22,684 nt of DNA. Origin: Amoeboradix gromovi (taxonomy: Eukaryota; Sanchytriomycota; Sanchytriomycetes; Sanchytriales; Sanchytriaceae). The stretch spans positions 1 to 22,684 of the forward strand of contig JADGIF010000081.1 in the NCBI GenBank assembly GCA_018985225.1, written 5' to 3'. Shown here piece by piece: positions 2,252-21,366 of the stretch. The first letter of the stretch is position 1. The number at the start of each line of letters is the position of its first letter. The position numbers were made by a program, and so were the translations under genes. Below the pieces are notes generated by a model. That model was not told the DNA's origin and ran no database searches. It saw only the letters and a program-made list of their open reading frames with translations.

Positions 2252-2873
2252 CTCCTTGTTAAAATTCCTGATTTCTGAGAAAATCGAGTTTCCACAGAGA
2301 AACTAGCAATGCTAGATGCTCTATTACAGTGATTGCTCACGCTTTCACTACCCTGAGGCGGGATTGAATAAGGATGCAGATACTTGGTATATGTTCCTTA
2401 CTGCCATATGATCTCTATCTAGCTTCAAATGACATTTTGTACAGGTTCAGGTTTCTAAATTGGTTTTCTTTAGAGTAACACACCTTGCACATGTCTGACT
2501 AGTAAATGCTTCATTACATTCGATTATCGTCTTTTCTCTTTGTTTGCATTTGAAATTCAAGCGTTCCTTGAATGTGTAATGGGACATTGTGGCCATATTT
2601 CTTGCGACCTTGCTCGACAAGCTACTTATCATTTGGCTAGTATTGAGTGACGGTAAGAATATAAGATCATATGTCTTTATATGCTGTACCTGCTAGTTAT
2701 TTCTTTAAATTTGACACGCTCAGGATCACATCTATTTATTCCATTAACAATTAGTCAGAATGGAAAATATCGAGTATTTAAGCCGTTGAGAAAATCTGGA
2801 AAAGTCATGAAATTATATAAAAATGCATACAAATTCGCAATAAATGATTTATTCAAGAAAACAATCGAGCTGT
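2252..2873 (-). mobile_element. IS607-like/Fanzor element copy A (deletion derivative)
   Basis: This is the longest copy and the one with most TnpB. In element orientation (minus strand), the left end begins ACAGCTCGATTG at 2873. After ~120 bp comes a recombinase N-terminus reading DPERVKFKEITSRYSI, the start of a MerR-like HTH, ending at a TAA. A deletion then joins it to the TnpB C-terminal region (2632-2395). That region reads MSHYTFKERL..KC, the RuvC-II segment IIECNEAFTSQTC with its Glu, and CARC, then a premature TGA at 2447. In the same frame after the stop come TCTKC and LDRDHMAVRNIY with the RuvC-III Asp. The right end closes at GGAG (2252). It is non-coding today but diagnostic. No target duplication is visible. 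Confidence 0.85.
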
Positions 2874-3029
2874 GTATATTTGTTATAGTATCTTTTTTAC
2901 TCTGCTTAAGTATCACACTTGATAGAAGATGAGAGGGTTTGTTACTGATATGCGCTGCTTAGATGCAAAGATATCTGGGATGTTTCTTAAGATGAGATGC
3001 TCCTAATAATTATCAATAAATTTATTATC

Positions 3030-4888
3030 TCACGGCTCAAATATCATGTTAACATTTTCGATTATTGATTCTACAACTTTACATGCATGCACCAGCTCAT
3101 CCTTCTCAACCCTTACTATACTTGGACCTACTCTTATAGCCAACTGAAAAGAATTAATCTTCTTTTTTTCCGCTATTCTACATTATTTATAAATTACTTG
3201 TTTAAATTTAACATCAAAGCCTTTAATGTGCAATAGTTAGAATCAGGCAGTTTGTTTACGCAATCGTGTACTCCAATAATCCTTCTTCTGTTGTCATCTG
3301 TTTTAACTGCAGCCATAAAATCCTGGATCATATCGTTTGGAATCAATCCATCTGGTAATTCTCTGAAGAACAGCAATATCATATCGCACAAAAGCGGCAT
3401 AGGAACGTTCCTATAGTCAACCGAAGGGGCGTGCTTGTTAAGCTGATTTCTCATTGAGATAATTGCATCATGGGATTCAGTAGACTGGTATATATCTACT
3501 CTTTCATTGTATCTATCCAAAGCATTCAGCAATTCCTCTAAAAATCTGGGCAAGTTAACATCATCCCGATCACATATATATTGAAGATCTACTCCAAAGT
3601 TGGTGTATATCACATCAGACGGGGTCTCATTCATTAAGCGACTATCATTCTTTGTAACCACGTGCATTTCTTCAATATGTTCAAGAAAGTTTTTGCTGTT
3701 GTTGTTGTACGAAAATCTAATAAAATCTGCCAAATCTTTTTCTAAATTGAACTTTTGAATAATCTCTAGCACTGTGGTTTGCAAAGCACCATCCTCTCCA
3801 ATTTCAGGATCGGTAGGACTCAATTGAAAACTGGGCTCTCTGTTTAAGACCAAGTGCTCAAAATCATTTTCGATATCAGTCATAGGTCCTGCTTCATCCA
3901 AACCACCATAAATCAAGTTCTTTTGATCATTAACTTTACGAACTTCCTTCCAATACATACCCCAAGCCCATTTGTATCTGTCTGCTAACTCATTACTGAG
4001 TTCCATCATGGAATGCAAAACTTTTGGTAAGTGAATCCTATAAAAGTTTTGATAAAACGCGATTAAGGATGAAATTTCTTTCTGGTACTTCTTGGATCTA
4101 TCACCCGTTTTGTTTGCGTATTTGGATTCGACATCCTGCAAAGCATCTATGCTTGGTTTGGATCCTAAAATGTTAAATGCTGATTTTCTCTTGGTAGCTG
4201 TTCGGTTTGGTTTTCCCAATTCTTGAACAAACTGAATTCTTTTATTAATTGAATCCTCCCATTTAGAAACGTACAATTCAAATTCTTTCTTCGCGGATTC
4301 AAGCTTCTTTTCTTGATCTTTTTTTCGTTTGGTCAACTCTTCTAAAGCATTTTTTAACTGTTTTCTACTATTGTCATGATTTCCATATATTCCTTTAATG
4401 TCTTGCCCAAGCGAGTCAAAACTGTGTCCCAATTCTAGATGTAAATTTCCAATCTCTAGGTGCAACCGATCTAGATATGAAAGTTTAGTGTTCATATCTA
4501 GTATAGCATCATTGGGAACCTTCTTCTGGTCTACTGATTTTTTCATCGCGCTCATGTTTGCAGATGTTGTTTTTCCTACCATCTTTTCAACTTGTGACTG
4601 TTTCTTCAAAAATTCGGAAATTTCAGAGAGCTGAAAGATCTGATATTTAAGGTACTCCATAAGATAATCAGGGCCTTCTTTTAAGTCGCATAATAAATTG
4701 ACCAAGCCATGTTCATTGAATCCAGTTTGTAATGGCTTATTTGGGTTTCTGTTAAAGTTAACTGGCTCAATCTGCCTTTCCATTGATTTGGTTAGACTTG
4801 AGTAGCTTTCCTTTGATGCTTCGCTTTGTATGTCTACTTGTCTAGCTAACGTAGCGAAACCTAATTTTGGAATTGAGTCTAAATTCAT
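3030..4888 (-). CDS. F-BAR / RhoGAP-domain protein, GAP site degenerate (one 20-nt intron)
   Basis: Joining 4888-3198 with 3177-3030 gives 612 residues. An F-BAR region spans about 57-320: an FCH start around FNEHGLVNLLCDLKEG and a long coiled coil with charged repeats. A RhoGAP domain spans about 431-612, from FGVDLQYIC through FFRELPDGLIP to LAIRVGPSIVR. No DEP domain is seen between them. The family links curved or tensed membrane to Rho/Cdc42 signalling in polarity and septation. The residues that make RhoGAPs work are altered. The arginine finger (IYRxSG) reads IYQSTES, with Gln468. The Lys of LLKxFLRELP is Leu. The Asn of NLAxVxGP is Gln. It may therefore bind Rho without stimulating hydrolysis. 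The last 48 residues appear only after splicing. AATAAA lies 3-4 nt after the stop. Confidence 0.9.
3178..3197 (-). other. 20-nt spliceosomal intron in the F-BAR/RhoGAP gene
   Basis: On the minus strand: GTAATTTATAAATAATGTAG. Without splicing, the frame stops at LNLNK. With it, the protein continues IAEKKKINSFQLAIRVGPSI, the conserved end of a RhoGAP domain. The donor is GTAATT and a TAAT box lies just before GTAG. Confidence 0.9.
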
Positions 4889-5158
4889 CTTGACCTGACC
4901 TATTTTTCAAATTGTAAGAGGCATTGGATTTCAAACAATTTTAATCAGGTTTAAATTTAGGGCAATAGTAATCACATTAAATCGTGGTTAGTTAAACTTA
5001 CTGAAAAATTTAATAATTTCAACATGAAAAATTTCGAGTAGCAAATAATTGATCATCAATATGACCACTATTTGCGCTTTATTTCTTGTCGTCTTTCGTA
5101 ACTATAATTGACATTTACTTAAACTTTGATAGGCGACGTTACCAACTCCAAACAGAAA
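4889..5158. promoter_or_regulatory. Divergent intergenic region, RhoGAP / deacetylase-like 1
   Basis: 270 bp between two divergent start codons, AT-rich, without a recognisable element. The plus-strand frame of the next gene is open back to 5126 but has no ATG before 5159. Confidence 0.4.
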
Positions 5159-5938
5159 ATGCTAAATATTTTCAGAACATTCGTGTTGATTTCTTTAAGC
5201 GGATTTCTATTCTACTACTTCTCTCCAAGTGACTCTAGCATTTCTCGTAGAGCTCCTACTAATTTCATTTCACAGTGTAGTACTTTAGTTCCTAACATGG
5301 TAGCTTTGACGATTTTGGACATCGGACCGCATCTGAATGATTGGCTAGCTGCATTGAGTATCCAGCAAGTAAAGGTTACTTTCATGTTGGATCGAGCAGG
5401 ATTAGGTAATGCTGAATTAGTAAATCAGATCTTTAATGCAGGCCATAACATTGGTATTGATGCGAGATCTGAGGCATTGACAACCTCTAATATAGTATCC
5501 ACTTTGAAAGAATTGAGCAACATAGTTGGCCCAATTATCAAAAAAGCTCCAAGATTCTACACCTTGAGCGATAACAATGCCGAACAATTAGCATCTGTAG
5601 CTTTGCAAGCTGGTTTGTATGCTGTTAAACTTAACACTGGGTTTTTAAAGACTGGTGACATTGTTGCCCAGGTTGCAAATGTTCAGCTCGTTGGCGACCA
5701 AACAATTATCGGGATGGTAGACTCTACAGCAAGTCTTATAAATACTAATCAATTTTCTGGATTTTTGGCTACTTTGAGAAATTCGAAAAACAATTTGGTA
5801 TCGCTTGCGGATTGCACTCAAAAGACATCAGCTTATGATTTATGGTTTCCAAATGAGAAATCAACAGCTGCACCTACTGAAAAAAGTGGTGAGACCAAAT
5901 TTAGTGCTGGAAGTGTAAATAAATGGTTGTGGTGGTAA
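5159..5938 (+). CDS. Membrane-anchored polysaccharide-deacetylase-fold protein 1, catalytically dead
   Basis: 259 residues from the first ATG. Residues 1-22 form a signal/anchor helix. A Cys (C40) precedes a degenerate NodB motif 1: fungal chitin deacetylases have ALTFDDGP, here it is ALTILDIGP. The second, metal-binding Asp is therefore Ile. Motif 2 (normally IGNHTxxH) reads IGIDARSEAL, with both metal His lost. Motif 3 (RPPYG) reads RFYTLSD. The closing ADC matches the conserved Cys of the family (DC/EC.G). The fold is likely retained while Zn-dependent chitin deacetylation is not. Possible roles are chitin binding, wall architecture or a decoy, all inference. It lacks the hydrophobic tail of its two neighbours and ends KWLWW. 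It converges on the next gene with 39 bp between stop codons. AATAAA is at 5943. Confidence 0.75.
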   Translation: MLNIFRTFVLISLSGFLFYYFSPSDSSISRRAPTNFISQCSTLVPNMVALTILDIGPHLNDWLAALSIQQVKVTFMLDRAGLGNAELVNQIFNAGHNIGIDARSEALTTSNIVSTLKELSNIVGPIIKKAPRFYTLSDNNAEQLASVALQAGLYAVKLNTGFLKTGDIVAQVANVQLVGDQTIIGMVDSTASLINTNQFSGFLATLRNSKNNLVSLADCTQKTSAYDLWFPNEKSTAAPTEKSGETKFSAGSVNKWLWW

Positions 5939-5972
5939 TATAAATAAATTTATGAGATTATAGAGATTTTAA

Positions 5973-5978
5973 TTTATT
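5973..5978 (-). terminator. Poly(A) signal overlapping the stop of deacetylase-like 2
   Basis: The minus strand reads TGAATAAA, so the signal starts on the last base of the stop codon. With AATAAA at 5943-5948 on the plus strand, the 3' ends of the two convergent genes must overlap or nearly so. Confidence 0.5.
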
Positions 5979-6875
5979 CACAACAAATTTAATACGCACA
6001 AGCACAGTAATATGGCGGAAAGTAGACCAGCGCTATTTTTTCCATTTCCTTTATTTTCAGGCTGGACAAATGAGTTCATGTAAGGCGGTACTCCTAGACA
6101 CTCACTCAAAGGAAGGACTTTATAATTGTAGGATTTAACAAGCTCGATATATGCTTCTATGTCTTTACGAACAAGTTTGTTCTCATCCATATGAGTATGT
6201 GCCCAAATATATTTTAAGCGGTTTCCACCAGCGACATAAGGGTCCATTGTGCTTTTGTAAGTGCCATATAAATCCGCGTTACTTTGTGTTAAATCTTGTA
6301 AGTAAACCTGCGCTTTGATGGGTAGAAAACCCATTTCCATTGCCCATTGAGAAGTTTTGACTTCTGTATCCCATGATACACCATACCTTAGTTAACAGAA
6401 ACTACTTGAAAAATACAAATTTTGGATACGAAGATCCTCCAATAAATGTCTTCATGGTCTCTGCGTATCCAGCGAGTGTTATTTTAAATGTGGTCTGATC
6501 CATATTATCCAAATCCTGAGGAAAAGATGGGAATGCTAATCCTATCTCCATACCATCTGCAACCAGCCCATCTATTTGTCCTTTTAATCCTGCCTGGCTT
6601 TCCACAGTTACAGGGTTAATAAAGAAAGTGCATTTTAGTCCACGAGAGATGCAAGCTTGCCTAAATTCATAAGTTTTGTTAAAACCAGGTCCATCTCCGA
6701 ACACTATTGACATTTGAGATATGGTATTACATTCTCTTCTAAAAAAATAGTTTGTTCCAGCTTGTCTTCTCTGAGCAGGCTTTCGAGATAGATCATTATC
6801 GCTACTCCCTCCAAATCCATAATAAGCTACTATTGCAGCAAGCAAAAAAACGGAAATTCTAAAAAGATTCAGCAT
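5978..6875 (-). CDS. GPI-type polysaccharide-deacetylase-fold protein 2, active site lost (one 19-nt intron)
   Basis: Joining 6875-6406 with 6386-5978 gives 292 residues. Residues 1-20 are a signal peptide; the last ~17 (SAGLLSAILLCLCVLNLL) look like a GPI-attachment tail. NodB motif 1 reads VFGDGP: the metal Asp (D61) stays, the catalytic-base Asp is Gly60. Motif 2 is IGLAFPSFPQDL, with no His. KCTFFINP and the end VLPLSECLGVP are clear family marks. The C-terminal half also holds IWAHTHMDENK and a run of aromatic residues. Secreted and surface-anchored, it probably binds or once modified wall chitin. Without splicing, the frame stops after PKFVFFK; removal of 19 nt continues YGVSWDTEVKTSQWAMEMGF. 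It is a paralogue of the genes on either side. Confidence 0.8.
6387..6405 (-). other. 19-nt spliceosomal intron in deacetylase-like 2
   Basis: On the minus strand: GTAGTTTCTGTTAACTAAG. Donor GTAGTT is identical to that of the G-alpha intron; TTAAC lies four bases before the acceptor end. Removal joins two halves of one deacetylase-fold protein that are otherwise in different frames. Confidence 0.9.
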
Positions 6876-7210
6876 TCAAATATAATGAGGCTTGGCCGGT
6901 TACGTTTACAGAAGCATCTAAAGGAGAAATTCCAAAACAAATGGGACATGCAACATGACTTATACAAAGACCTTCATAGAAATTTGATATTTTGACTGAG
7001 AACATTGGAAGACTTTCACATTTTGAAATAGTGCTAATGCTAACCTAGTAGGCATTGGTTAAAGTTGTGAACACCTTGCTACGCAGCTGCCCTGGTATCC
7101 GAATTGTACTTCATAGGCAAGAACTAGAACAACATTGTCCAACTGGGAAACGAAACGCCTGAAAAGCTTACGGTTATCCATAAAATGCAAATTATGTCCA
7201 AAACCATTTA
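6876..7210. other. Intergenic, no gene seen
   Basis: 335 bp between two minus-strand genes. It should hold the promoter of deacetylase-like 2 and the 3' end of deacetylase-like 3. All frames are broken and I recognise no repeat. Confidence 0.4.
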
Positions 7211-8152
7211 CTAAATGTAGCTTATCAGCATTATAGATAGTAAAGTTTCTAATCTGTTTGAATAAGAACCATAGTCCACTTTTGTTTTTTTTGAGTTATC
7301 TGAACTGCCCGTTACTGGATCAACGCAAACAGTTGGCATTTTGAAAAAACCTGGTGATGCATTTAGGCCTGCCGGTATGGAGTTTGCTATATTAATAATT
7401 AAACTACTTGATTTCAGAGTGCTTTCTGATCCTAAGCCTACGCAGTCTGACATCTGTACAACAGCGTACCCCGAGGCCGCAGCAGCATCTAATATCTGAT
7501 TGACAGCATTACTATCAATCGAATTAGTATCCGAATCTTCAATGCTAAACACATAACCAGCTCCACTGCTCATGTAGCTAGTCATAATGGCTATATCTTC
7601 TGTTTTTTGTAAATCGCCATTTCCCTTTGTGTTTTGTATGACGACAAATCCCATAGCATTAGCTATCTGAATCATGGGAGTCAAATCAACCAAACATATA
7701 TCTTTTGAGATATTTGGAATTCTTATAAACTTTGGCCATTGCCCTGCAAAATTCAATGCAACGGACACCTTGTCTGCATATTGCTTCAAGTAGTTGGCAA
7801 AATCTTGGGCGCTCATGGCAGCAATATCCTCAGGCCACAGTGGTATCTGCATTCCGACAATTTGATTTTTACTAAACGCATCATTAACTGCAGCCTTGTT
7901 CTCCAGATTTAACATATTCGGATTGACCATAAACGTAGCCTTTTCTTTTTTCAGCTGGAAGGAGTTCAATATAGAACCTGTCTTCGATGACGGGCCCCAA
8001 GTAGTCATGAAAGATACAGTTTTTGGTTTAGTGCACTGATTAAACATTCTTAACGCCTGCCTTTGCTCTTGTCCCGTCGAACTTCCTTCGTTAGATGTCA
8101 TGTAAGAAACGATGACTAAAATAGCTGTTAAAGTTTTTAAATTGTCAAACAT
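7211..8152 (-). CDS. GPI-type polysaccharide-deacetylase-fold protein 3, catalytically dead
   Basis: 313 residues, uninterrupted. A signal peptide covers residues 1-22. Cys40 precedes motif 1, which reads VSFMTTWGP against VALTFDDGP of fungal chitin deacetylases, so both Asp are lost. KATFMVNP matches the KATFFVNG strand. Motif 2 is VGMQIPLWPEDIAAMS, without His, yet it keeps the spacing of IGNHTWSHPDLTTLS. Motif 3 reads KFIRIPN. The end MSDCVGLG matches the family's ECLG. A Ser-rich linker follows, and the tail LLSIMLISYI is a short GPI-like hydrophobic end. Loss of every metal ligand in three neighbouring paralogues, with the fold kept, argues for a new non-enzymatic role rather than decay; this is inference. 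Confidence 0.75.
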   Translation of the reverse strand: MFDNLKTLTAILVIVSYMTSNEGSSTGQEQRQALRMFNQCTKPKTVSFMTTWGPSSKTGSILNSFQLKKEKATFMVNPNMLNLENKAAVNDAFSKNQIVGMQIPLWPEDIAAMSAQDFANYLKQYADKVSVALNFAGQWPKFIRIPNISKDICLVDLTPMIQIANAMGFVVIQNTKGNGDLQKTEDIAIMTSYMSSGAGYVFSIEDSDTNSIDSNAVNQILDAAAASGYAVVQMSDCVGLGSESTLKSSSLIINIANSIPAGLNASPGFFKMPTVCVDPVTGSSDNSKKTKVDYGSYSNRLETLLSIMLISYI

Positions 8153-8367
8153 GGCTGAATGGGTTATTATCTCGAAAAATCAATTTTATTTATAAATGTT
8201 TAAAGAAAGAGATTGATACTAGTGATTATTTTTCGTCTTGTGAGGTTCTGGTATTAAAATCAAATCGTGCTTTATTGATCTAGTTTTTTCGTCGAAGTGC
8301 CTCTTTTTGTTTTCTGGGTGAGACTCTCGCATTTAAAATAATCACTTTTACGGAAGATCTGGAAATA

Positions 8368-8715
8368 TCAAATGACTCTTGGATTACCTCTAAATGGTGG
8401 ATCCACACTGTCCAAAATGGAAGAAATCTCAAAATTGCCTTGCACAAGCGACATAATGTCATGCTTTATCTGGGCTAGAACATCAGTCAGGTCAAATTCA
8501 AATCTGACAACAGATCCAGATTCAATAACATCTGCAAATTCAGTAAACAAACGTTTTGATTCATTTGGCAAATGTTTCACAGCTTCGCAATTACCAAAAT
8601 TAAGTTGCTTTGCACATTTTAGCAACTCCATTTGAAGATCTTGAGTCATCAAAGACTCTAGGCTCTCAGTACTGATTCCAGAAATAACAGATAAAAGCAG
8701 AACTTGGATAAGCAT
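8368..8715 (-). CDS. Small secreted protein of unknown function
   Basis: 115 residues from the ATG at 8715. I preferred this start to an upstream one at 8757 because it puts a clean signal peptide (MLIQVLLLSVISGIS) at the N-terminus. The mature part is helical and has two cysteines nine residues apart (CAKQLNFGNC), suited to one disulfide. I recognise no family. The 3' end is uncertain. If the 19 nt from GTGTGG to TTTAG were an intron, the protein would lose its DPPFRGNPRVI end and continue in another frame to 8280, with a basic tail KQKEALRRKN. That segment lacks the TAAY box of the four good introns, so I keep the unspliced model. Confidence 0.5.
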   Translation of the reverse strand: MLIQVLLLSVISGISTESLESLMTQDLQMELLKCAKQLNFGNCEAVKHLPNESKRLFTEFADVIESGSVVRFEFDLTDVLAQIKHDIMSLVQGNFEISSILDSVDPPFRGNPRVI

Positions 8716-8757
8716 ATTTTTGTATGGATGTGTTAAGATTATATAACCCCCAATCAC

Positions 8758-9436: not shown

Positions 9437-9905
9437 CTCCTCATTAAAAGTTCTGATTTCCGACAAAATCGAGAATTTCCAGAGAGAAGCTAGCAATGCT
9501 AGATGCTCTATAACAGTGATTGCTCGCGCTTTTACTACCCTGAGGTGAGATTGAACAAGGATGCATATACTTGATGTATATATTCCTTGCTGCCATATGA
9601 TCTCTACTGTTGTACAAGTGGTAAGACCATTCACATACGAATTATTAAATAAATGGTTCGCAGGTTTATTTATCTTTGATTTCTTTCTAGGCATTGAAAG
9701 ATATCAAATTCTTCCGTGCTTGGACCAGCTCTCTCAGAGTTGATGAACGTATGCTGTACCTATTAGTTATTTCTTTAGATTCCATTTACCATTTGTGAAA
9801 AGGAAGAATATCGAGTATTTGAGGTATCGGAAAAATATGGAAAACTCATGCAATTATGTAAAAATACATAAAAACTCTCGATAAATGATTTATATTTTAC
9901 AAAAC
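9437..9905 (-). mobile_element. IS607-like/Fanzor element copy B (short, non-autonomous form)
   Basis: Minus-strand orientation; right end GAGGAG at 9437. It matches copies C and E base for base over most of its length. That includes the recombinase segment around MPRKKSKINK, FNNS, and the same junction to the RD-H-M-A-A-R-N end of TnpB, here frame-damaged (DNA AGTAGAGATCATATGGCAGC). The left end is the most diverged: ATAAATGATTTAT is kept, but the terminal CGAGCTGT is not seen. Length about 470 bp. No target duplication is visible. Confidence 0.8.
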
Positions 9906-10096
9906 TTAATAGCTGATTGATATTTCAAGCCGAATCTCATGAAAAGGTACCAAGTTGGAGCACCAACAAAAACGCTTGCGATGGTCATATGTATGGAGTC
10001 ATGTGGAGGGAATACGTCATTTACAACCAATTGGATCGTTAGAAAACAACTCAAAACTCGATGCTTGAAAATATACTTTGAGTGATTTTTGATAGG
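9906..10096. promoter_or_regulatory. Upstream region of the DUF1775 gene
   Basis: About 190 bp between copy B and the ATG. It holds CCAATTGG at about 10027, which contains a CCAAT box on both strands; whether it works is unknown. Confidence 0.3.
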
Positions 10097-10739
10097 ATGA
10101 ATGCTTTGATGATTGTATTAATGACCATATCTAAGGCGCACGTAACAGCCAACCCTAATTATGGAGCACCTAAGGCTTATTTGGCAACTTATTTCAGAAT
10201 CGGGCATTCCTGCTCTCCCTTAGAGAAGACCACGTCTGTAGAGATTGAGATTCCTGATGGTGTGTACACTGTCAGACCCAAGTACACGGCTGGATGGACA
10301 TTCAACGTGACGACTGTTCAACTGGAAACTCCAATTACTGGAGGCGAGACTCCAATCACCAGTAAAGTGACAAAGGTAACATTCAACAGTGCTGAGGGGC
10401 TAGCCAACGATGCTTACGAGGATCTGGGATTAAATTTCCAACTTCCGGACAAGGCAGGAACAAATTTGTTTTTCAAGACAACTCAGAAATGTCCAGGAAA
10501 CACAACTGCATGGGTCAACATCCCGGAAAACAATGACATAGCAAAGTGGGGAAAGACTGCAAAGCCTGCGCCGTACGTCATGATCAAAGCAGAAACCGTG
10601 CCTGAAGCATCCACACAGGATCCTGTTAATTTGGGAATTGCAGTTGCAGGTAATTGAAACTAATTAAGCACTAGTTATTAGCGTGATTGCGTTGTCTGTT
10701 GGAAGTGTAATAGCTATAAAAACAAGAAAACGAACCTAA
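10097..10739 (+). CDS. YcnI-like (DUF1775) copper-binding membrane protein (one 19-nt intron)
   Basis: Joining 10097-10649 with 10669-10739 gives 207 residues. A 14-residue signal peptide should leave His15 as the mature N-terminus (HVTANP). This is the start bacterial YcnI proteins use to hold Cu(II) in a mono-histidine brace. Further family marks are RIGHSC, VEIEIPDGV, GW at 66-67, NFQLPDKAG, TQKCPG..TAW (W139) and PAPYV. Two Cys (39, 132) fit the family's pair. After splicing, the C-terminus becomes a membrane helix (VNLGIAVAALVISVIALSVG) with a basic tail KTRKRT. That is the bacterial layout: exported domain, C-terminal anchor. In bacteria the family is tied to copper uptake or delivery. 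Here it may serve the tyrosinase at 13702 (inference). Confidence 0.85.
10650..10668 (+). other. 19-nt spliceosomal intron in the DUF1775 gene
   Basis: GTAATTGAAACTAATTAAG. Without splicing the protein ends at GIAVAGN. With it, the frame runs on through a transmembrane helix to a basic tail and stop at 10737. CTAAT lies four bases before the end, as in the other introns. Confidence 0.88.
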
Positions 10740-10742
10740 GTT

Positions 10743-10829: not shown

Positions 10830-10834
10830 TGTAT

Positions 10835-12992: not shown

Positions 12993-13076
12993 TTCACTAC
13001 CCCTGCGATGGAATAATTGTGTTAATCTGCTTTAATCAATCTGTGTAACCCTACTTTGTTTAATATTTAGGAGTTG

Positions 13077-13535
13077 CTCCTCGTTAAAAGTTCTGATTTC
13101 TGAGGAAATCGAGAATTTCCACAGAGAAACTAATGCTAGTTTCACCGTTACAGTCACTGCTCACGCTTTCACTACTCTGAAGCGGGACTGAATAAGGATG
13201 CAGATGTTTCATGTAAGTGTTCCTTGCTGCCATATGATCTCTACTGTTGCATATTCGGTAAGACCAATCACAAGAATTATTAAATAAACGGTTTACAAGT
13301 TTATTTATCTTTGATCTCATTCTAGGCATTGGAAGATACCTAATTGTTCCATGTTTGGACCAGTTCCTCAGTGTTGATGAATGTATGCTGTACCTGTTGT
13401 TTCTTTAGATTTGATTTACCATTTGCGAAAAGGAAGAACATCGAGTATTTAACCTATTAGAAAAAGTCATGAGATTATATAAAAATGCATACAAATTCGC
13501 GATAACTGATTTATTCAAGAAAACAATCGAGCTGT
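13077..13535 (-). mobile_element. IS607-like/Fanzor element copy C (short, non-autonomous form)
   Basis: In minus orientation the left end is ACAGCTCGATTG at 13535. The recombinase HTH reads YSIHSSTLRNWSKHGTIR, then YLPMPRMRSKINKLVNRL. This matches the IS607 TnpA pattern of TLRxW...GxIR followed by a basic segment. After FNNS the frame passes straight into CNSRDHMAARN, the RuvC-III end of TnpB, then HLHPYSVPLQ. The fusion frame is open for 81 codons here. The right end is GAGGAG (13077). Just outside it, GGAGTTGCTCC makes a small palindrome. Length 459 bp. Confidence 0.88.
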
Positions 13536-13701
13536 ATGATCCTCAAGTTTGTTTTACAAATTAATTTGAACTGAGAGATCGGTCAAAGAGTTGTCCCAAG
13601 TGTAGTTTGCATTTTAATTTGGTTGGGCATCCAATCAAGTCTAGCTTCGAGTTGATTGAGCGCTAGTTACTGATTAAAAGCCCCCAAGCCCACTAATCAT
13701 C
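13536..13701 (+). promoter_or_regulatory. Upstream region of the tyrosinase gene
   Basis: 166 bp between copy C and the ATG. It contains CCAAT (around 13632) but no clear TATA box. Because it is so short, the left end of copy C may contribute to the promoter. Confidence 0.3.
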
Positions 13702-15258
13702 ATGTTGTGGACTGTTTTATTTGCACAATTTACTGTGCCATGTGCCAATCCTAGATTGCGTAAAGATTTTCGAAGATATACTACCCAGGAATGGGCTGAC
13801 TTTACAAGGGCGTTCAAATCGATGAAATCATCAGGCGAGCTATCAAAATTCGCTGCTTTGCATTGGAGTATATATGGTGACATTCACAGTGGCGTAAGCG
13901 TCCGTAAAAGGAACTTTTTAACTTGGCATCGTGCTTTTATTTATGAATTGGAAACTCGATTGCGTCAAATATCTGGTAAGCCTATCACTCTGCCGTATGT
14001 CGACTGGGGTAATGAGGCAGATGTCTACAAAGGTGCTGTTAGTAAGAGCGTCGCTTTCAAAGGATATTACTATGGCGAAATGGTCGGTCAGTGCTTAACT
14101 GGCAATATTTATGATTCGTTCTCTTTAAGACCTGATTTTGTGGAATATAACAAACTTAGGGGAGATAACCGCCAATGTATCTATACCACCACCAATACTG
14201 CTGTACCAGTTGGTGGATGGGCTACAGTAGATGGTACTATCTTCAACAAGAAAGCCTTTGCCTCCTTTTCTGATGATGTGGAATATTCCATCCATTACCA
14301 AGTTCATACACACATTGGTGGACTAATGACATCTAAAATATCACCTATTGTTCCGATATTCTTTGCTGTTCATTCATTCGTTGATCTGATGTTTACTACC
14401 TGGCAGTATGTGCATAACCAGTGGAAAAACATGCCTGAATCATTTTCTAAATCCACATTTCAAATATTGTCAGGGAAAACCTACACACACGAACAAGTTT
14501 ATGGGATGAATGAAATGTGTGTGCGATATGAGCGGGTTCAGTCTTCTAGTTTGTCATCAAAAGATAGAAACACCTTGAGCCCTAAACTCTTGAAAAGAAT
14601 GTCTGAATTACAAGATCTACATAGTTCATTGATATCAGAACCCACAGCAACTACCACTCATTCACCCACATCAGCTGCAACGCTATCTTCCCAGGAGTCA
14701 ACAGAAACTGAGACTGTAGTCTACTTGAAACCAGTTGTAACTGTTCCTACAGACCAGCAAGTGTTGGAATACAACACCAAATTGAATTCATACTACAACG
14801 AGGTCAAAGCAATTTACTCCAAGGCTAATTCGAATGAGACAGATGCTGATGACGAAGCATACACTAAATGTGCTCAATTTTATGGAAACAGTTCATTTAT
14901 TCCAGTTACTACTAAGATGAACAGTACTCTGTTAAATGCATTTCATATAGATCCAGTCTCATACCAAAAGCATCTAGAGCTCAAGAACAAGAGGAATATT
15001 CAGATTGCGCAGCATGCAAAATTGCCAGTTTACGTCGGAAGCTCTAAAAGCACCGACTACAAAAAAGTACAAAGCAATTTGAACGCTACATACAAAGGCA
15101 TGAGATTGCAGGCGGAAACAGACGGAAAAACAGCCATGATTGAACAGGCTGCAACAGCTACCGAAGAGTTAAATTCAGCCCAAACAATCAAGGCATATGC
15201 AAGTGGATCACACGATTTAGTTACGGCAATGTATATTCTGACACTTATAGTGATTTAA
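13702..15258 (+). CDS. Secreted, GPI-type tyrosinase / catechol oxidase
   Basis: 518 residues. Signal peptide MLWTVLFAQFTVPCA. The binuclear type-3 copper site is complete. CuA: His54 (ALHW), His62 (DIHSG), His76 (FLTWHRAF). CuB: His198 and His202 (SIHYQVHTHIGG) and His224 (FFAVHSFVD). The oxidase oxidises phenols to quinones, as in melanin or wall cross-linking. Two variations stand out. The residue after the first CuB His is Tyr199, where monophenol-hydroxylating enzymes usually have Asn. The DP before FF is VP, and the first His of the HH pair is Val, though the ligand His stays. After ~300 residues comes a Thr/Ser-rich linker, then an Asn-glycan-rich, helical region unlike known tyrosinases. 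The tail SGSHDLVTAMYILTLIVI suggests a GPI anchor. It is flanked by copies C and D. Confidence 0.9.
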   Translation: MLWTVLFAQFTVPCANPRLRKDFRRYTTQEWADFTRAFKSMKSSGELSKFAALHWSIYGDIHSGVSVRKRNFLTWHRAFIYELETRLRQISGKPITLPYVDWGNEADVYKGAVSKSVAFKGYYYGEMVGQCLTGNIYDSFSLRPDFVEYNKLRGDNRQCIYTTTNTAVPVGGWATVDGTIFNKKAFASFSDDVEYSIHYQVHTHIGGLMTSKISPIVPIFFAVHSFVDLMFTTWQYVHNQWKNMPESFSKSTFQILSGKTYTHEQVYGMNEMCVRYERVQSSSLSSKDRNTLSPKLLKRMSELQDLHSSLISEPTATTTHSPTSAATLSSQESTETETVVYLKPVVTVPTDQQVLEYNTKLNSYYNEVKAIYSKANSNETDADDEAYTKCAQFYGNSSFIPVTTKMNSTLLNAFHIDPVSYQKHLELKNKRNIQIAQHAKLPVYVGSSKSTDYKKVQSNLNATYKGMRLQAETDGKTAMIEQAATATEELNSAQTIKAYASGSHDLVTAMYILTLIVI

Positions 15259-15259
15259 C

Positions 15260-15273
15260 AGTAAACAAATTGT
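15260..15273. repeat. 14-bp direct repeat, left side of copy D
   Basis: AGTAAACAAATTGT, identical to 15715-15728 on the other side of copy D. It starts two bases after the tyrosinase stop codon. Confidence 0.75.
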
Positions 15274-15716
15274 TTTCTTGAATAAATCATTTATCGCGAA
15301 TTTGTATGCATTTTTGCATTATTTCAAGACTTTTCCAGATTTTCCTAATAGCTTAAACACTCGATATTCTTCCTTTTTGCAAATGGTAAATCAATTCTAA
15401 ATAAATAACTAGCAGGTGCAGCATACATTCATCAACGTTGAGGAACTGGTGCAAACATGGAAATTCGAGGCCATGTACAATATGTGGCACTCTAAAGAAA
15501 ACCAATTTGAAGAGCTATTCATGTACATAGTGTCATTTGGAAGTGGACATGGACCACATGGCACCAAGGAACATACACATCAAGTATCTGCATCCTTATT
15601 CAATCCCGCCTCAGGGTAGTGAAAGCGTGAGCGATCACTGTAACGGAGATCTAGCATTGCTAGTTTCTCTGTGAAAATTCTCGATTTTCTCGGAACTCAG
15701 GTCTTTTAAAGAGGAG
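15274..15716 (+). mobile_element. IS607-like/Fanzor element copy D (opposite orientation)
   Basis: Plus orientation. The left end resembles the others from ATTGTTTTCTTGAATAAATC on, but the outer ACAGCTCG is absent. The recombinase HTH is interrupted near TTGAGGAACTGG and joined to a nearly complete TnpB zinc ribbon at 15473-15575. That reads PCTICGTLKKTN, SYSCT-stop-CH, then VDMDHMAPRN, where RD has become MD. After it comes YLHPYSIPPQGSESVS. The right end is GAGGAG at 15711-15716. Its deletion differs from those of A and of B/C/E. Frame shifts and a TAG make it non-coding. It abuts the tyrosinase stop codon. Confidence 0.85.
15281..15286 (+). terminator. Element-borne poly(A) signal behind the tyrosinase gene
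   Basis: AATAAA, 22 nt after the tyrosinase stop, lies inside the left end of copy D (CTTGAATAAATC, shared by the other copies). No AATAAA occurs between the stop and the element, so the transposon probably supplies the 3' end of this mRNA. Confidence 0.5.
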
Positions 15717-15728
15717 TAAACAAATTGT
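15715..15728. repeat. 14-bp direct repeat, right side of copy D
   Basis: AGTAAACAAATTGT, identical to 15260-15273. Its first two bases overlap the GAGGAG end of the element. Confidence 0.75.
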
Positions 15729-15782
15729 ATTTATGGGTCATATTTTATCCGAATTTACTCACAAGAAATGGCCATCATCTGC
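15729..15782. repeat. 54-bp dispersed repeat, copy 1
   Basis: Runs from ATTTATGGGTCATATTTTAT to GGCCATCATCTGC and matches 21910-21963 at 51 of 54 positions. It starts next to the direct repeat beside copy D. A short TAAAC stretch just before it is shared as well. No coding sense is seen. Confidence 0.8.
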
Positions 15783-15864
15783 GGCCCGCATTTCATAATT
15801 TTTAAAGCATATAATTACTTACTTTTCGCTAGTTGTTTCTCATACAGGTAGTTTATTGTTTTCA

Positions 15865-16276
15865 TTATGTTTCTATTTCTTCTTGTAGACAACTTTTGAT
15901 TACTCGTAGTTGCTCGGAGAGTTCCCAGTTTTTAAAGAAAGTGCTGGCTGATGTTCTGTTTCTTTTTTTCCAAGTAATTGTTTTGAAAATCTTGTGGTTG
16001 TAATAAAAATTGAAAACTGGTGTCTGACTCCAGGCGAGAACGAATATCATAATTTGTGCTTCTTATATCTTTTGTCTCTCCGTTTCTGCCTTTTAGGACT
16101 ACTATTTCTTTGTTTTTTAGCTGAACTCTTAATTCTTGTTATTGTTCTGCATAGCAACCGTTCTGACAATTAGAAAAACTTACCACAAACCCTAGTACGA
16201 AAGTAATATATAAAAGCAACAAAGAATAAATTCCAGACTTATTAAAAAAGTAAAAACATCATTTCGAACCTACCAT
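15865..16276 (-). pseudogene. Possible decayed secreted coiled-coil gene
   Basis: On the minus strand a frame reads SLLLLYITFVLGFV, like a signal peptide. A 21-nt intron candidate at 16163-16183 follows (GTAAGTTTTTCTAATTGTCAG, with a CTAAT box), then NGCYAEQ, a single TAA, and a charged helical run QELRVQLKNKEIVV. A frameshift near 15945 leads to KNWELSEQLRVIKSC and a stop at 15865. The good intron signals and the continuity on both sides of one TAA suggest a gene lost recently. The start is unclear: an ATG at 16276 would need a further 36-nt intron. I recognise no family. It may also be chance. Confidence 0.3.
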
Positions 16277-16333
16277 AGAAAGTTAGCGATTTAAGGGTGT
16301 TAATTTAAAACTTGATTTTTTGTTTCTCAGAAG

Positions 16334-16391
16334 CACCAATCAGACTTAACAAAATTTAATAGGAAACTTCAGCTAGAAATTCTGATTGGTG
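16334..16391. repeat. 11-bp inverted repeat with CCAAT boxes
   Basis: CACCAATCAGA at 16334-16344 and its exact complement TCTGATTGGTG at 16381-16391, 36 nt apart. Both arms carry a CCAAT box in opposite orientation. It may be a regulatory site or a relic of mobile-element ends; there is nothing coding around it. The rest of 16277-16737 shows no gene. Confidence 0.5.
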
Positions 16392-16737
16392 GTGTATTTT
16401 ATATTAGGATGAGGGCAATTAAGTATGGATGTGTAGCTGTTAAATACAATACAGCATACATTAGTTAGAGCTTCTCATCGTGTAAGTTGATTATATGCTT
16501 TCATCTTACACTGCTTGTAGCATTGCGCTGTTTAGATCTTTGACAATAATTTATTGAGTGAACCGCAATTAAGTCTTGAAACTAGAGAATATGACATAAA
16601 GAAGTACTGCAATTCTCTTTTATTAACAAGCTCTATTTAACATTTAATCTTGAAATCATTATTTATCATAATGTACCAGCTGAGACATTTTAGTCAATAC
16701 TCAATTATGGAGACAACCATATCTTTACAGATTTCGC

Positions 16738-17668
16738 ATGGCTTTCCGTTTAAAGTTTTTGGCTCTACTAGTGGCTTGCCATGATAATGCCACCAGATGA
16801 AATTTTGATACGCGAATTCAGCGATGGAGACGCCACAAAAGGTGTATACTTGTACAAATATACAGGCAGCATGATCAATGACAAAGTCGTAATTGCTGGT
16901 GTAAACTACGAAATTCCAAAACTCATGCAGACTCCAGAATACTTTATTAGAAAGTTTGGACGTAGTAGTGAAATCCAAGCTCGCTAAAAACATGATGAAA
17001 ATCTCAGGCATGTATTTCACATTAAATCGAGAGATCAAATTAGTGCTGAAAGTGATATACGAGTTTTTCTATGAAAACAATTATTTAACTTGCATATGCA
17101 CAGAACTCATTTCTGCAATTTAGTTAGGCAGCTTTTAGATGACAATTTAATTACCTTTAATGGTAATCTTAATAGTATCGACTTTAGACGTATGTACGAG
17201 ATATATGAATTTAACCTCGACGACATGTACCAGGAATTTTCGGAACACGAGCTGAGAGTTAGTCATTTGATAATACGCTTCGGTCTTCAAATCTGATTCA
17301 CTTGGACAGAGAGTCCACCTATGAATTTCCTCCTCTTGAGAATCATTGTAAATTTCACTGAGGTCTGAAAATTCAAGAAAAGATGAACTCTCGGACCGCG
17401 CATTAGGTTATTACTTGTACAGCAACTAAAAGAAACATAAGATCGAACTTCATAGCATACTAACGTGCTTACCCTCTTATGTTTAAGATCGAGTGTTATG
17501 ATTGTTGCCATTATTAATTTTTGTGATGAAATTACAAGTCTCACCAATCGTGACCTTAATTACACTTTGAGGACTGATCCTTTAGCATCAAATTGAACGG
17601 GTTGACTGAGTACTACAAAAGTCCTATTGCGTTCATTAAACAAATTCGCATGAGTGTTGCCTTTTTAA
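16738..17668 (+). pseudogene. Probable decayed secreted-protein gene, several frameshifts
   Basis: A signal-peptide-like start (MAFRLKFLALLVACHD) at 16738 runs into a stop. One frame over, a protein-like segment follows (EILIREFSDGD...YLYKYTGSMINDK). A further shift near 16968 gives KSKLAKNMMKISGMYFTLNR. Another near 17113 gives VRQLLDDNLITFNGNLNSID to 17296. A last trace, DLNYTLRTDPLA...LNGLTEYYKSPIAF, lies at 17555-17668. No tiny intron with the local consensus explains these shifts, so decay is more likely than splicing. The family is unknown. The interval 17297-17497 shows nothing else. Confidence 0.4.
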
Positions 17669-17698
17669 GGAGATAACTACCGAAACACGCAAGATTTA

Positions 17699-19758
17699 AT
17701 GAACACTTTTAGAGATCAGCATTTAGATAAGACTATAAAAAAGTCAGATTTTAGATTAAAGTTATGTTGCTGTGATGAGAATACCGATTTTATTATCGCT
17801 AATGATGAGGATGTTCTTATGTTTACCACAAATAACATCCCCTATGACGGAAACTCATCCGTTTGGTTACTTCCTCATTGGAAATTAAATAAAGAGAGAT
17901 TGAAACGTGAACGCCCATTCTGTAATCCATCCAAAGGCTTTGGATACTACGTTAATTGTAAAATAAAAAAATGCCGTACTGGCTATTACTATCCACTGAG
18001 TGTAGGTTATCACGATAAACCTGGCTTGACCAAGCTAACAATGACGACCAGGTTAGAAAAAACTGAAGAAGTAAAGGAATTGATTCGTTTTGATGGAAAG
18101 AAAACAGATTGGCAAACGGAGTATACTCCAATTCTGGATCCTAAAAAGACAAGAACAGAAGACATATATCCAAAGTACGAGGGGTTAAACATATCTCCAG
18201 AGTACACGGGGTTACCTAATGAGACTGATGATGGTGTTTTTTTGTATTTTGGTACTTTAATGTTGTTTGACCAGTTTGAATGGACTGTCAATAATAGTAT
18301 TAACAATAAAGACAGGGAATTTTCCAATAAAAAATGGAGAATAGTGTCATATTGTCTTGTTAGACTGCTATCTATTGCACTCGACAAAGAGCCGAACTGT
18401 GAAGATATGCTCAACCATAAGATTTGATCAGCGATGATGTTATGATCAACATGGATCCCTTTAATGGTGTCTTTGAGTGTATAAAATCTAAATATAAAGA
18501 GGTCTATAAAAAGTTTCTTAAAAAGGGAGATCATGACCTAAAAGTATTTAAGGATCGTATTGTGGTGCAAATTACAAATCGCATTTTATTAATTCTTAAT
18601 ATTTGTAATGACAGTGATTTCATAAATATCATAAAGGATGTTCAGTGTATTATAAAAGAACAAATAAGCAATTTCAAAGAATTTGATATTGAAATTTATT
18701 TAAGCGTTTTGAAAATATTTAAATTAAGAAAAGATCATCATCAATATAAAGAAGTTTATAAGACGCTAAAAGGATTTTGTAAGTCTCCAGATTCTGAGCA
18801 ACAGTTGTGGAATATGTTTAAACCAAATAGAGAAATAATAGAGATCGAAAGTCCATATGATTGGATGGCAGTTTATAAAAAAGAGAGATTTGAAAGAAAG
18901 GATGAACTTTTACGCTCTGTTCATTATATTCTGGAAGATCCTTATTTCTTCAATACAGTGATGGGTAGGATAAGTTTTAACGCAATAGTTCCTCAAGAGG
19001 AACGAGAGATTATTGATGCCATGATTAAGTCATATTACGAGTCCGAATCAAAAGATAGATACGAATGGAAAGAAGCCCCTAACTCTGATGATAAAAAGTT
19101 CAAATTTGCATGTCTTTTGTTTTTGTTTAAAAGAACAGGAAGCCCAGTTTTCACAAAAGAAGAGTTCTTAAAGCTCCTCAAGGAAACTCCAAACATTCAC
19201 TATCTACTACATGGTGGCTTAGCTCTGCTTGTGTTGAAGAAACTGAGCTTCTCTGTGGAGCAAGCCATGGTCCAATACAAAAAATTGATTCATCCAAAAG
19301 TGTGGCGATTATTAACATTTTATGAATCTAACTGTGCTACAATCAATATCGACCTTCATACATCCTTTTTAAAGGTGGGTCCTGAGATTCTTGGATTTAC
19401 TGTGCCGTTTATCATGGAGATGCTGAGAAAGCATACCAAGAAACTCAAAGAAGAGAATACCTCCAAGGACGACGGTTACCGAGGACTAAAAACTATAAAA
19501 TGGATTATTATTTGCGGGAAAGGTATTCATGGAGGTGGCGAAAGCAATCGTGGTAGAGGTAGAGGCAATCGTGGTAGAGATAGAGGTAGAGGCAATCATG
19601 GTAGAGGTATAGGCAATCGTGGTAGAGGCAATCGTGGAGTTTCTGAAATCCTAGACAAGACAATCGATAAAGGGATTATCGAAATAGAGGATAAACATCC
19701 ATTTAAAAAGTTAGTTAATTATAAAATTCCAAAACCTGAATTTCCTGAAATGCATTGA
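17699..19758 (+). CDS. Unrecognised 678-residue protein with C-terminal RG-rich tract
   Basis: Two long open frames overlap by four bases at 18424-18427. Removing a 23-nt GT-AG segment (18399-18421) joins them into 678 residues; this is the only local GT-AG pair found that restores the frame. Residues 1-233 include a CCC cluster and a DY/WQTEYTPILDP region. Residues 234-600 are charged and helical (DPYFFNTVMG, FLLKETPNIHYLL-like segments). Residues ~599-641 are an Arg/Gly tract (NRGRGRGNRGRDRGRG) built on a short tandem DNA repeat at about 19540-19640; such tracts bind RNA. There is no signal peptide, membrane helix or known catalytic motif. It could instead be two genes or a frameshifted one: the donor GTGAAG and 23-nt length differ from the other introns. 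Confidence 0.6.
18399..18421 (+). other. Candidate 23-nt intron (off-consensus)
   Basis: Starts GTGAAG and ends CTCAACCATAAG. CTCAAC could be the branch box. Its length restores the frame between the two halves and removes TAA at 18418. The donor is weaker than GTARTT, so a plain frameshift is not excluded. Confidence 0.45.
19540..19640 (+). repeat. Short tandem repeat encoding RG/NRGRG units
   Basis: Imperfect repeats of GGTAGAGGCAATCGT and GGTAGAGGTAGAGG inside the coding frame. Such arrays often vary in length between strains. Confidence 0.7.
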
Positions 19759-20075
19759 CACATATAGAGTTCTATATATGCTACTAATAAATCTTTTTCG
19801 AAATTCATGCAGTCTATATGAACCCAAGTGAAATTCTGACATGTGATAATAAACCAGAAATCAACATTTTTTGCAAATCTGTGACTTTATGGTGCATTGA
19901 AGATTTCTAGCGATTTTGAGAGCTTAGCATTTCTGGTGAGTGATGCTCTGTTCAAATTAAGCAGAGCTAATGATATTCAACATTAAGAAATATGATTATT
20001 TATTTTTTCAACTTTTTCCAATCCTGTAGTAGATCTGCAGCACCTAGTCCTTCATTCATGCTCATCATTTACTAA
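19759..20075. other. Intergenic between convergent genes, no gene seen
   Basis: About 315 bp holding the 3' ends of the RG-rich gene and the kinase-like fragment. AATAAATC occurs 25-30 nt after the RG-gene stop. TATAGA and TCTATA form a small palindrome (around 19763-19778). Nothing else is recognised. Confidence 0.4.
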
Positions 20076-20708
20076 TCAACACCTTGTAATTCTCATCGCA
20101 TAAAAAACCAAATATTTTATCTTTAATCTCATCCTCGGTTTGATACCCTTTAAAAGGAACACTTTTGTTGGTAAAGTAGTCCAATGATTTCCTTGAGTGA
20201 TTTTCCCAGTGCGTATATCCAAGAGATCTGCATCAGATTCCATAGTATTTAGTTCGTTACCTCTAGCAGATATACGGTCTAAGATCTCTGAAATAGCACT
20301 CTCGGCCTCCTCATTCTTTTTAACCACATTGTCTCTAGACCTAATACGAATGAACCAATCCGAAATAACAGTCATAAACCCATTATGCTTTGTACTCCAA
20401 TACACTAATTCAATTACCTTGATAATTAGTTCCTTATCCATAGTAAGTATCCTGTCCTTATACTTATTGAAATGCTCTTCTATAGCTTCCAAATCAGAGC
20501 ATTCTCTCTTACTTTTTATCTCGAGTAAACAAACTTCCAACGCAGATAGTAGCACAATCTCGATTGCATTAGGGACTGCGCTTGAAAGAATATAACTAAC
20601 GGTACCAAGGCCTTTGTTTTTTCTCTTTGGAATTGTTGAAGACCAACCAAAATCGATTAGCATTATTTTATATTGCGAGTTTTCAGCAAATCTTGTGTAT
20701 TTTTTCAA
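20076..20708 (-). pseudogene. Protein-kinase-like fragment, N-lobe and catalytic loop missing
   Basis: The open frame has no ATG before its diagnostic segment. YKIMLIDFGWSSTIPKR carries the DFG motif of a protein kinase, followed by GLGTVSYILSSAV as an activation-segment-like stretch. The rest (about 170 residues) is charged and helical. The glycine loop, the VAIK Lys and the HRD loop should lie upstream, but the minus strand there has stops, and transposon copy E begins about 160 bp further on. It looks like a kinase gene truncated by rearrangement or insertion. A short 3' exon of a spliced gene is a weaker alternative. Related lineages encode secreted kinase-type effectors, but this fragment is too short to assign. 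Confidence 0.5.
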
Positions 20709-20870
20709 AGCGTATTGGATGATTCTTTAGCAAATAATATGACCTCTTCAGAGGAGGAAGTGATTATTATCTAAGTCTTGATTGTCTCTTAAGCAGCAAG
20801 GAACCTCTTCCTGGTATGAGCACGGATCATCTTCATGCTTGTTGATTTGTTTATGTTTAGCATTTTATGG

Positions 20871-21366
20871 CTCCTCGTTAAAAGTCCTGATTTCCGAGAA
20901 ATCGAGAATTTCCACAGAGAAACTAGCAATGCTAGATGCTCCGTTACAGTGATTGCTCACGCTTTCACGACCCTGAGGCGGGACTGAATAAGGATGCAGA
21001 TACTTGATGTATATGTTCATTGCTGCCATATACTCTCTATTGTTACACATGTGGTATGAACAATCACATAAGAGTTATTAAATAAATAGTTTACGAGTTT
21101 ATTTATCATTGATCTCTTTCTAGGCATCGAAAGACATCTAATTGTTCCATGTTTGTACCAGTTCCTCAATGTTGATGAATGTATGCTGTACCTGCTAGTT
21201 ATTTCTTTAGATCTGACGTATTCGGTATTACAACCATTAATTCCATTTACTATTTGCGAAAATGAAAAGAATATCGAGTATTTAAGCTATTGGAAAAGTA
21301 TTGAATTATACAAAAATGCATACAAATTCGCGATAAATGATTTACTCAAGAAAACAATCGAGCTGT
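20871..21366 (-). mobile_element. IS607-like/Fanzor element copy E (non-autonomous, best-preserved ends)
   Basis: Minus orientation, left end ACAGCTCGATTG at 21366, right end GAGGAG at 20871. It keeps the fullest recombinase start. After a near-ATG (ATA) the frame reads VNGINGCNTEYVRSKEITSR, then YSIHSSTLRNWYKHGTIR, and MPRKRSMINK. The TnpB end reads CNNREYMAAMNIYIKYLHPY with SVPPQGRESVSNHCNG after it. The right end has two perfect hairpins: GATTTC-cga-GAAATC (20889-20903) and CTAGCA-A-TGCTAG (20923-20935). Copies B, C and D lack ~28 bp near the recombinase start that E and A keep. Length 496 bp. Confidence 0.88.

Follow-up and report, generated by a model that had tools for sequence, protein, structure and literature searches.

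IS607-type elements that carry Fanzor2 are already known in eukaryotes and giant viruses: ACa-1/-2, CRv-1 and ISvMimi_1/_2 combine Fanzor2 with an IS607-like serine recombinase and, in the parts of their description consulted, have neither terminal inverted repeats (TIRs) nor target site duplications (TSDs) (Bao and Jurka 2013, PMC3627910). The repeat family described here, found in a 22,684-nucleotide stretch of the Amoeboradix gromovi genome (contig JADGIF010000081.1, C347 in our numbering; hereafter the window), resembles these elements in all these respects. Unlike them, it is dominated by gutted mini-elements, present in hundreds of copies, and the consulted parts of that paper describe no such derivatives; the mini-element burst is thus a variant of the known eukaryotic type. 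In Spizellomyces punctatus, the Spu-1 ghost loci contain a guide RNA without the protein, and action of the protein in trans has been proposed (Saito et al. 2023, PMC10432273, consulted in part). As far as that description goes, the mini-elements are similar in being guide-bearing loci without a protein, the guide role being putative here, and they differ in that Spu-1 has inverted repeats, whereas they are of IS607 type, without TIRs or TSDs and with relics of the helix-turn-helix (HTH) of the recombinase TnpA. The Spizellomyces protein, SpuFz, we take to be a Fanzor1. Another repeat sharing sequence with a Fanzor element is TE-N2_CMe (~70 copies), which resembles the 5' part of the Fanzor1 family CMe-1A; it differs in being linked to Fanzor1, and in the parts consulted its transposable element class is not established (PMC3627910). 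Bacterial IS607, according to the sections consulted, has a tnpA with an N-terminal MerR-type HTH and a tnpB, as in our family, and recombines at a matching dinucleotide; its overlap is GG, whereas here we infer AG within a longer preferred site, WRCAG (PMC4058570, PMC10711439). No high-copy IS607-type mini-elements of a eukaryote were recognised in the literature covered (titles and the beginnings of abstracts, mostly outside subscription papers).

In the window, a single dispersed family is represented by five copies, of which one lies on the plus strand and the others on the minus strand, at the places given by the original prediction, an annotation made from the letters of the window alone; we could refine the limits of copy 2 (to 9914) and copy 4 (from 15269). 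Read in its own direction, the element consists of a left end, the remains of the MerR-type HTH of tnpA, a 3' piece of tnpB and a right end. The predicted order of tnpA before tnpB holds in this direction, which is minus for four copies. Copy 1 (2252-2873, minus strand, 622 bp) is complete at both ends, beginning A-CAG and finishing AAGGAG; it lacks the HTH core and retains the 3' part of tnpB. Copy 2 (9437-9914, minus, ~478 bp) has a left end that diverged over its first 21 bases, and copy 3 (13077-13535, minus, 459 bp) is composed of left end, HTH remnant SSTLRNWSKHGTIR, RDHMAARN remnant and right end. Copy 4 (15269-15716, plus), in the opposite orientation, has an HTH remnant and a left end without its first 8 bases, and copy 5 (20871-21366, minus, 496 bp) is complete at both ends, with the HTH remnant SSTLRNWYKHGTIR. 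Stops or shifts of frame disrupt the reading frames of these copies, which are gutted internal-deletion derivatives of an IS607-type element and probably non-autonomous.

Whole-genome searches with the two ends, as the original prediction had advised, were run on an assembly of 6,779,989 bases in 366 contigs. The left-end pattern (27 bases, at most 3 mismatches) gave 222 matches and the right-end pattern (34 bases) 265, with none for either reversed control, in line with the suspicion that the family is abundant. This corresponds to one recognisable end per 26-31 kb, so that the window is dense in copies. Moreover, the zinc/RuvC-III domain of TnpB (PF07282) has at least 150 genome matches, every one over the cut-off, a lower bound obtained by scoring 150 of 342 candidates. 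The contigs whose size was seen are all longer than 10 kb, and a partial homologue lies on a 4.7-kb NODE contig in EukProt, so small contigs seem to be missing. For detailed analysis we used 64 copies with both ends paired, taken from 69 fetched loci and the window; these were chosen by best match, and the sample is therefore biased to well-kept copies (6 left and 15 right ends at the same loci had no partner). Their size is 452-682 bp, with a median of 569.5. An end-pairing scan of 100 of the 222 left-end and 100 of the 265 right-end matches found, among the matches listed, 23 left ends with a right end at most 6 kb downstream; 22 of the spans measure 131-618 bp, and the remaining one, of 4,002 bp, is read as joining two different copies. 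At C73:8220-8350 (plus strand) the two patterns stand just 131 bp apart, with room for little besides the ends; this spacing, known from pattern matches, suggests that the two ends may suffice, and makes the site a candidate minimal mobile unit.

Boundaries were counted in the 52 of 64 copies whose left match begins at most 4 bases from the end and whose right match reaches at least base 161 of 167. These complete copies sit after (A/T)(A/G)CAG, that is, WRCAG: the base preceding CAG is A or G in 47 of 52 (flank background ~51%, binomial p=2e-9), and the left junction reads C in 50, A in 47 and G in 52, followed by CTCGATTG. The right end is TTTTAACGAG, after which most copies have GAG (G in 43, A in 46 and G in 44 of 52); in a minority the end seems to lie at the inner GAG, perhaps as an alternative joint. 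Reading the ends directly gave at most ~4 bases of inverted match, which agrees with the predicted lack of TIRs. Flanking duplications of at least 8 nt are absent in 61 of the 64 copies. The exceptions are one duplication of 8 nt (shuffles give ~0.4), one of 12 nt and one of 14 nt, the last two belonging to locus L045 and window copy 4, in both of which the left end is missing its first 8 bases and which have ATTGT in common. In copy 4, the 14-nt duplication AGTAAACAAATTGT occupies 15260-15273, where it follows a C (giving CAG) and shares bases with the beginning of the left-end match, and 15715-15728, where it opens with the AG of the right end. In both copies the duplicated target thus stands directly after CAG on the left and directly after the GAG of the element on the right, and for this reason CAG is best read as target sequence. 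The sequences of these two copies suggest that CAG is the target and AG a shared two-base overlap; AG at the two junctions would suit most of the 52 copies (on the left, A in 47 and G in 52; on the right, A in 46 and G in 44) and the two odd copies as well. In the latter, one end was possibly joined by the recombinase and the other by break repair.

The forms within the family are distinguished by internal deletion. The tnpB-rich form, to which 15 of the 64 copies and among them window copy 1 belong, is devoid of the HTH core; its 114 tnpB codons start ahead of the zinc pair and extend almost to the end, and one deletion junction is common to all 15 copies. At least 80% of the 30-codon HTH segment is covered in 46 of 64 copies, and the amount of tnpB kept varies; in many copies the tnpB frame reaches a TAA within the right end. 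Several copies have the HTH and the zinc part of TnpB in one frame; L005 has it open in its plus-strand copy, and stops break it in L078, L082, L053 and window copy 4. Similarity to TnpB is seen in copy 1, where PF07282 matches 2390-2581 (minus) with 57.5 bits against a cut-off of 26.3, one TGA lying inside, and where the C-terminal piece of tnpB (2384-2680, minus, also with one TGA) is 51% identical to residues 447-544 of a 569-amino-acid part of the TnpB encoded on contig C218. Copy 1 contains ECNEAFTSQTC, C-x2-C pairs and RDHMA, and only 28 nt of the 90-nt HTH segment. In copy 4, one frame holds the HTH, MDHMAPRN and two C-x2-C pairs, of which the second contains a stop, but the Glu motif is missing; copies 2, 3 and 5 have HTH DNA and an RDHMAARN-like remnant, with no zinc pair visible. 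The similarity to TnpB is genuine, but the features originally listed for the five copies, HTH and TnpB hallmarks together, are a composite that no single window copy carries in full.

For the HTH, a hidden Markov model (HMM) was built from five TnpA loci of the same genome (C218, C135, C49, C313 and C254) and run on the 384 translated frames of the 64 copies. Fourteen copies passed the inclusion threshold, and the top 30 matches were all in sense frames. The best copy has an E-value of 1e-6, copy 5 of 6e-5 (with a match that spans VRSKEITSRYSIHSSTLRNWYKHGTIR and further), copy 3 of 9e-4 and copy 2 a weak 2.7. At the DNA level, copies 2-4 are 84.6-94.0% identical to copy 5 across 67-90 nt, copy 2 having the lowest value (84.6%). 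An HTH in all five copies, as first claimed, is thus supported by the HMM in copies 3 and 5 and by DNA in copies 2 and 4, but copy 1 is without the core; SSTLRNWSKHGTIR had been correctly read as HTH. That the motif is a chance word is ruled out by a model made from other loci of the genome. As to the proposed RuvC-II Glu in ECNEAFTS, the residue is present, but at the alternative Fanzor-type position, six residues ahead of the zinc pair, and not at the canonical one. At the LPE site, S replaces Glu in all 15 tnpB-rich copies, which all keep the alternative Glu. Fanzors use this alternative position (PMC10711439, in the parts consulted), and the idea that the protein is dead through loss of Glu at the LPE site was dropped.

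A second mini-element family, B, is represented by L089 (C346:12700-13600) and L090 (C33:21050-21850), both on the minus strand, in which one open frame fuses the start of TnpA and the first part of the HTH (MRNEKNSK...YDVSNT) to the TnpB zinc domain; ~20 more places, seen in the context of family B, match TnpA residues ~33-65 at 59-77% identity. A metagenomic 608-amino-acid TnpB (P0084) has MerR and HTH_17 domains in one protein and is perhaps a natural HTH-TnpB fusion.

Larger relatives of the mini-elements are present in the same genome. PF00239 identifies eight serine-recombinase loci in the assembly, to which protein searches add partial ones on C80 and C43. The four TnpA proteins tested all exceed the cut-off of NF033518 (NCBIfam transpos_IS607), and the nearest solved structures of TnpA include catalytic domains of the IS607 family. 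On C218 (open reading frames 2770-3399 and 1476-3491 of locus L017), an open tnpB of 672 amino acids overlaps tnpA in another frame. Its product scores 117.6 bits with the guided_TnpB model (cut-off 100), and the best match in the PDB is the TnpB-like protein L79, presumably the mimivirus Fanzor2. The genome-wide profile search set by the original prediction as its refuting test thus found the IS607 and TnpB similarity, and an IS607-type Fanzor family dispersed in a eukaryote is supported by the four TnpA proteins and by this open Fanzor2 frame. In an alignment of 32 proteins, picked from 120 entries listed, D471 (of DPG), E605 (the alternative Glu, expected six residues ahead of the first zinc Cys) and D637 (the RuvC-III Asp) of the C218 protein are invariant. 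A strict pattern of DPG and alternative Glu, modelled on PMC10711439, is passed by 98 of the 120 entries listed; the C218 protein is among the 22 that fail, because its first zinc pair is CxC and not CxxC, and in a quick tree it stands alone on a long branch. The setting of this element is eukaryotic, given the EukProt entry and a host ABC-F protein of fungal affinity (on C49, with best named relatives such as Smittium, Calcarisporiella, Sorochytrium and Allomyces). On C135, a tnpA frame (1512-2246) overlaps a 498-amino-acid frame (1633-3126 of L018) carrying a DPG motif, and a mini-element on the same strand ends ~240 bp before tnpA. C313 has a lone left end on the opposite strand, and on C96 a copy of the family lies ~2.5 kb off. 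On C61, a TnpB piece with a DPG motif and one TAG continues into the right end of the mini-element family.

Fanzor1-like genes were also observed. On C351 there is an open 748-amino-acid frame (L026:546-2789, plus) with PF07282, assigned by eye from CKCH ... DRDVNAS. On C9 (L027), a DDE_3 transposase frame (1-639, plus, 213 amino acids) is accompanied by a Fanzor1-like frame (1568-2464, plus, 299 amino acids, PF07282); the pair resembles the mariner-Fanzor1 elements as far as described in the consulted parts of PMC3627910, and a mini-element of our family (A) adjoins on the minus strand.

We observed a marked difference between private and shared variants of the coding remnants. Codon tests were carried out on 15, 29 and 63 copies covering at least 90% of the respective segment, and on 46 copies covering at least 80% of the HTH segment. 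Among the 15 tnpB-rich copies, private differences behave as neutral, with 22 synonymous changes versus 22.8 expected and codon positions hit 36, 38 and 36 times, whereas among variants present in at least two copies 33 are synonymous versus 14.8 expected (p=3e-7; positions 10, 8 and 37). The two alternative frames of the same segment show no synonymous excess; frame +1 displays a deficit (5 versus 15.2, p=0.0013), in keeping with variable third positions in the true frame. Shared synonymous variants are also in excess over 79 codons in 29 copies (36 versus 20.7, p=3e-4) and, weakly, over the HTH segment in 46 copies (21 versus 13.4, p=0.027); the final 27 codons, compared among 63 copies, show none (16 versus 15.6). 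In-frame stops occur in 8 and indels in 6 of the 15 tnpB-rich copies, and private divergence is low, with 110 private changes over ~5,100 sites. The shared variants are reticulate, and the longer piece on C61 groups among the copies, to which it is 88-93% identical. Since shared variants are mostly synonymous and private ones neutral, the source copies were coding. Judging from these sequence patterns, we conclude that protein constraint acted on the sources while single copies decayed. What it maintained may have been either a truncated protein or long elements that exchange sequence with the mini-elements by recombination.

Starting from what is observed directly (the family, its ends and site preference, the lack of target duplication, the pieces of TnpA-HTH and TnpB, the IS607-type relative and the coding source pool), we regard it with good confidence as probable that the repeats are gutted IS607-Fanzor2 elements moved by TnpA in trans. 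The ancestor would have been an IS607-type transposon coding for a serine recombinase (TnpA) with a MerR-type HTH at its N-terminus and for an RNA-guided nuclease of Fanzor2 type (TnpB). Internal deletions would have turned it into mini-elements that retain the sequences required in cis, namely both ends, of which the right one also comprises the last codons of tnpB with the stop and probably a guide-RNA scaffold. TnpA acting in trans would excise mini-elements as circles, to be joined to a (A/T)(A/G)CAG target with AG as the two-base overlap. As larger relatives exist in the same genome, the mini-elements may live off the enzymes of these relatives. Fanzor2, also in trans, may load the RNA of the right end, with the DNA to the right of each insertion as guide; it would then cut the empty site (CAG plus guide) on the sister or homologous chromosome, and repair would recopy the element. 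This maintenance step, drawn by analogy, we hold only tentatively and are inclined to doubt. Bolder still, and in our judgement rather unlikely, is the thought that every mini-element, by its right-end scaffold, would direct a shared Fanzor2 to its own empty site; several hundred dispersed guide-RNA sources would then form a guide array through which one or a few nuclease genes protect hundreds of gutted insertions in trans, and certain forms would contribute a small HTH-zinc protein to tune TnpA or TnpB.

In copy 1, the putative guide-RNA (reRNA) scaffold would occupy the right end, 2252-2418 on the minus strand, and the guide would read on below 2252. Single copies fold into hairpins, three of them in 4 of 5 copies folded. 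We aligned 60 copies (right-end match extending to base 161 of 167 or beyond, left-end match within 22 bases), and in these a three-hairpin structure pairs 94.8% of cells, versus 37-48% when slid; the structure was derived from the same sequences, and the slid control is biased towards it for that reason. The structure obtained with RNAalifold was poor, and Rfam and tRNA scans of the window returned nothing. A fold of the right end is plausible, and its role as RNA is suggested by likeness to Fanzor and TnpB.

Several results weigh against this account. The covariation test gave no support for the fold of the right ends (values as high as those observed came up in 124 to 311 of 500 shuffles), and the z-scores of the single-copy folds range from -0.6 to -2.7. 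The overlap would be AG, as opposed to the GG reported for IS607, and a search with joined flanks of the fetched loci found no empty site. The original prediction held that full-length copies may exist elsewhere in the genome; larger relatives do, but among the matches listed there is no long intact element with the ends of the mini-element family. The ten serine-recombinase loci have no left- or right-end pattern within 5 kb among the matches listed, and pieces of the family recognised by sequence similarity near three tnpA genes do not, as far as seen, bracket tnpA or tnpB. The open tnpB of C218 overlaps a tnpA with one stop, an in-frame TAG within the HTH; the matched part is stop-free in only 4 of the 8 recombinase loci (C218, C135, C313 and the partial C304); and the 498-amino-acid tnpB frame of C135 has no Pfam match of its own, its zinc part lying past a stop.

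The copies could be relics of a single past burst whose autonomous copy has been lost, with no present mobilisation or use; the identity of the element would be the same, and we consider this a serious possibility that nevertheless falls short of probable. The neutral private differences, the stops in 8 and indels in 6 of 15 copies and the lack of a long element with the same ends among the matches listed are as expected of such relics, yet the low private divergence (110 changes over ~5,100 sites) and the related recombinase and tnpB frames that are still open speak against them. A different reading of the coding signal is that a small regulatory protein has been selected, consisting of the TnpA-HTH and the TnpB zinc domain or of the C-terminal part of TnpB alone. 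Shared variants that are mostly synonymous in 15 copies with a single junction would fit, as would the single frame that unites HTH and zinc domain in several copies of family A, uninterrupted in the plus-strand copy of L005 and broken by stops in others, and the open frames of family B (L089 and L090). However, the variants are reticulate and C61 falls within the diversity of the copies, so the synonymous signal is explained by recombination with coding long elements. Moreover, the 15-copy form has its HTH side and TnpB in different frames, with the first ATG well inside, the last 27 codons show no excess in 63 copies (16 versus 15.6), and the excess over the HTH is weak (p=0.027); we judge a selected small protein quite improbable.

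The structure of the insertions decides against two other origins. Copies retrotransposed in the manner of short interspersed nuclear elements (SINEs) would have a fixed 3' end, 5' truncation and target duplications, and just 2 of the 64 copies, 15269-15716 in the window and L045, combine a short left end with a duplication of 12-14 nt. Against these stand 61 of 64 copies without a duplication of at least 8 nt, 52 of 64 complete at both ends, and right flanks with no visible A-tail; a SINE-like origin, resting on two odd copies only, is extremely improbable and was rejected. Miniature copies of a eukaryotic cut-and-paste transposon that acquired a Fanzor, as with Fanzor1 in mariner, would find a parallel in the DDE_3 transposase near the Fanzor1-like frame on C9. 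With no TIR beyond ~4 bases, no TSD in 61 of 64 copies and a TnpA HTH present, we likewise rejected an origin from a TIR transposon, to which we give hardly any credence. The derivation from IS607-Fanzor2 elements mobilised in trans by TnpA thus remains the one that we favour.

The surroundings of the copies were also inspected. The host genes around those in the window include G-alpha, a RhoGAP protein and a tyrosinase (Pfam); this fungus-like genome also encodes, at 10082-10657 of the window (plus), a DUF1775 protein (PF07987, E=1.5e-30). A direct repeat of 65 nt, 88% alike, is found at 15718-15782, adjoining copy 4, and at 21899-21963, ~0.5 kb past copy 5. The flanks of the copies L064, L084, L003, L036, L079, L002 and L086 contain another dispersed repeat, whose matches are 61-254 bp long and 72-97% alike, and the copies L038 and L071 have ~20 bases of left flank in common and different right flanks.

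The case bears on how Fanzors serve the elements in which they reside: hundreds of short insertions in a compact, fungus-like genome, with precise IS607-type ends, a preferred WRCAG site and differing right flanks, would allow a direct test of guides and of action in trans. If our interpretation is true, a serine recombinase system of bacterial type would have yielded high-copy mini-elements in a eukaryote.

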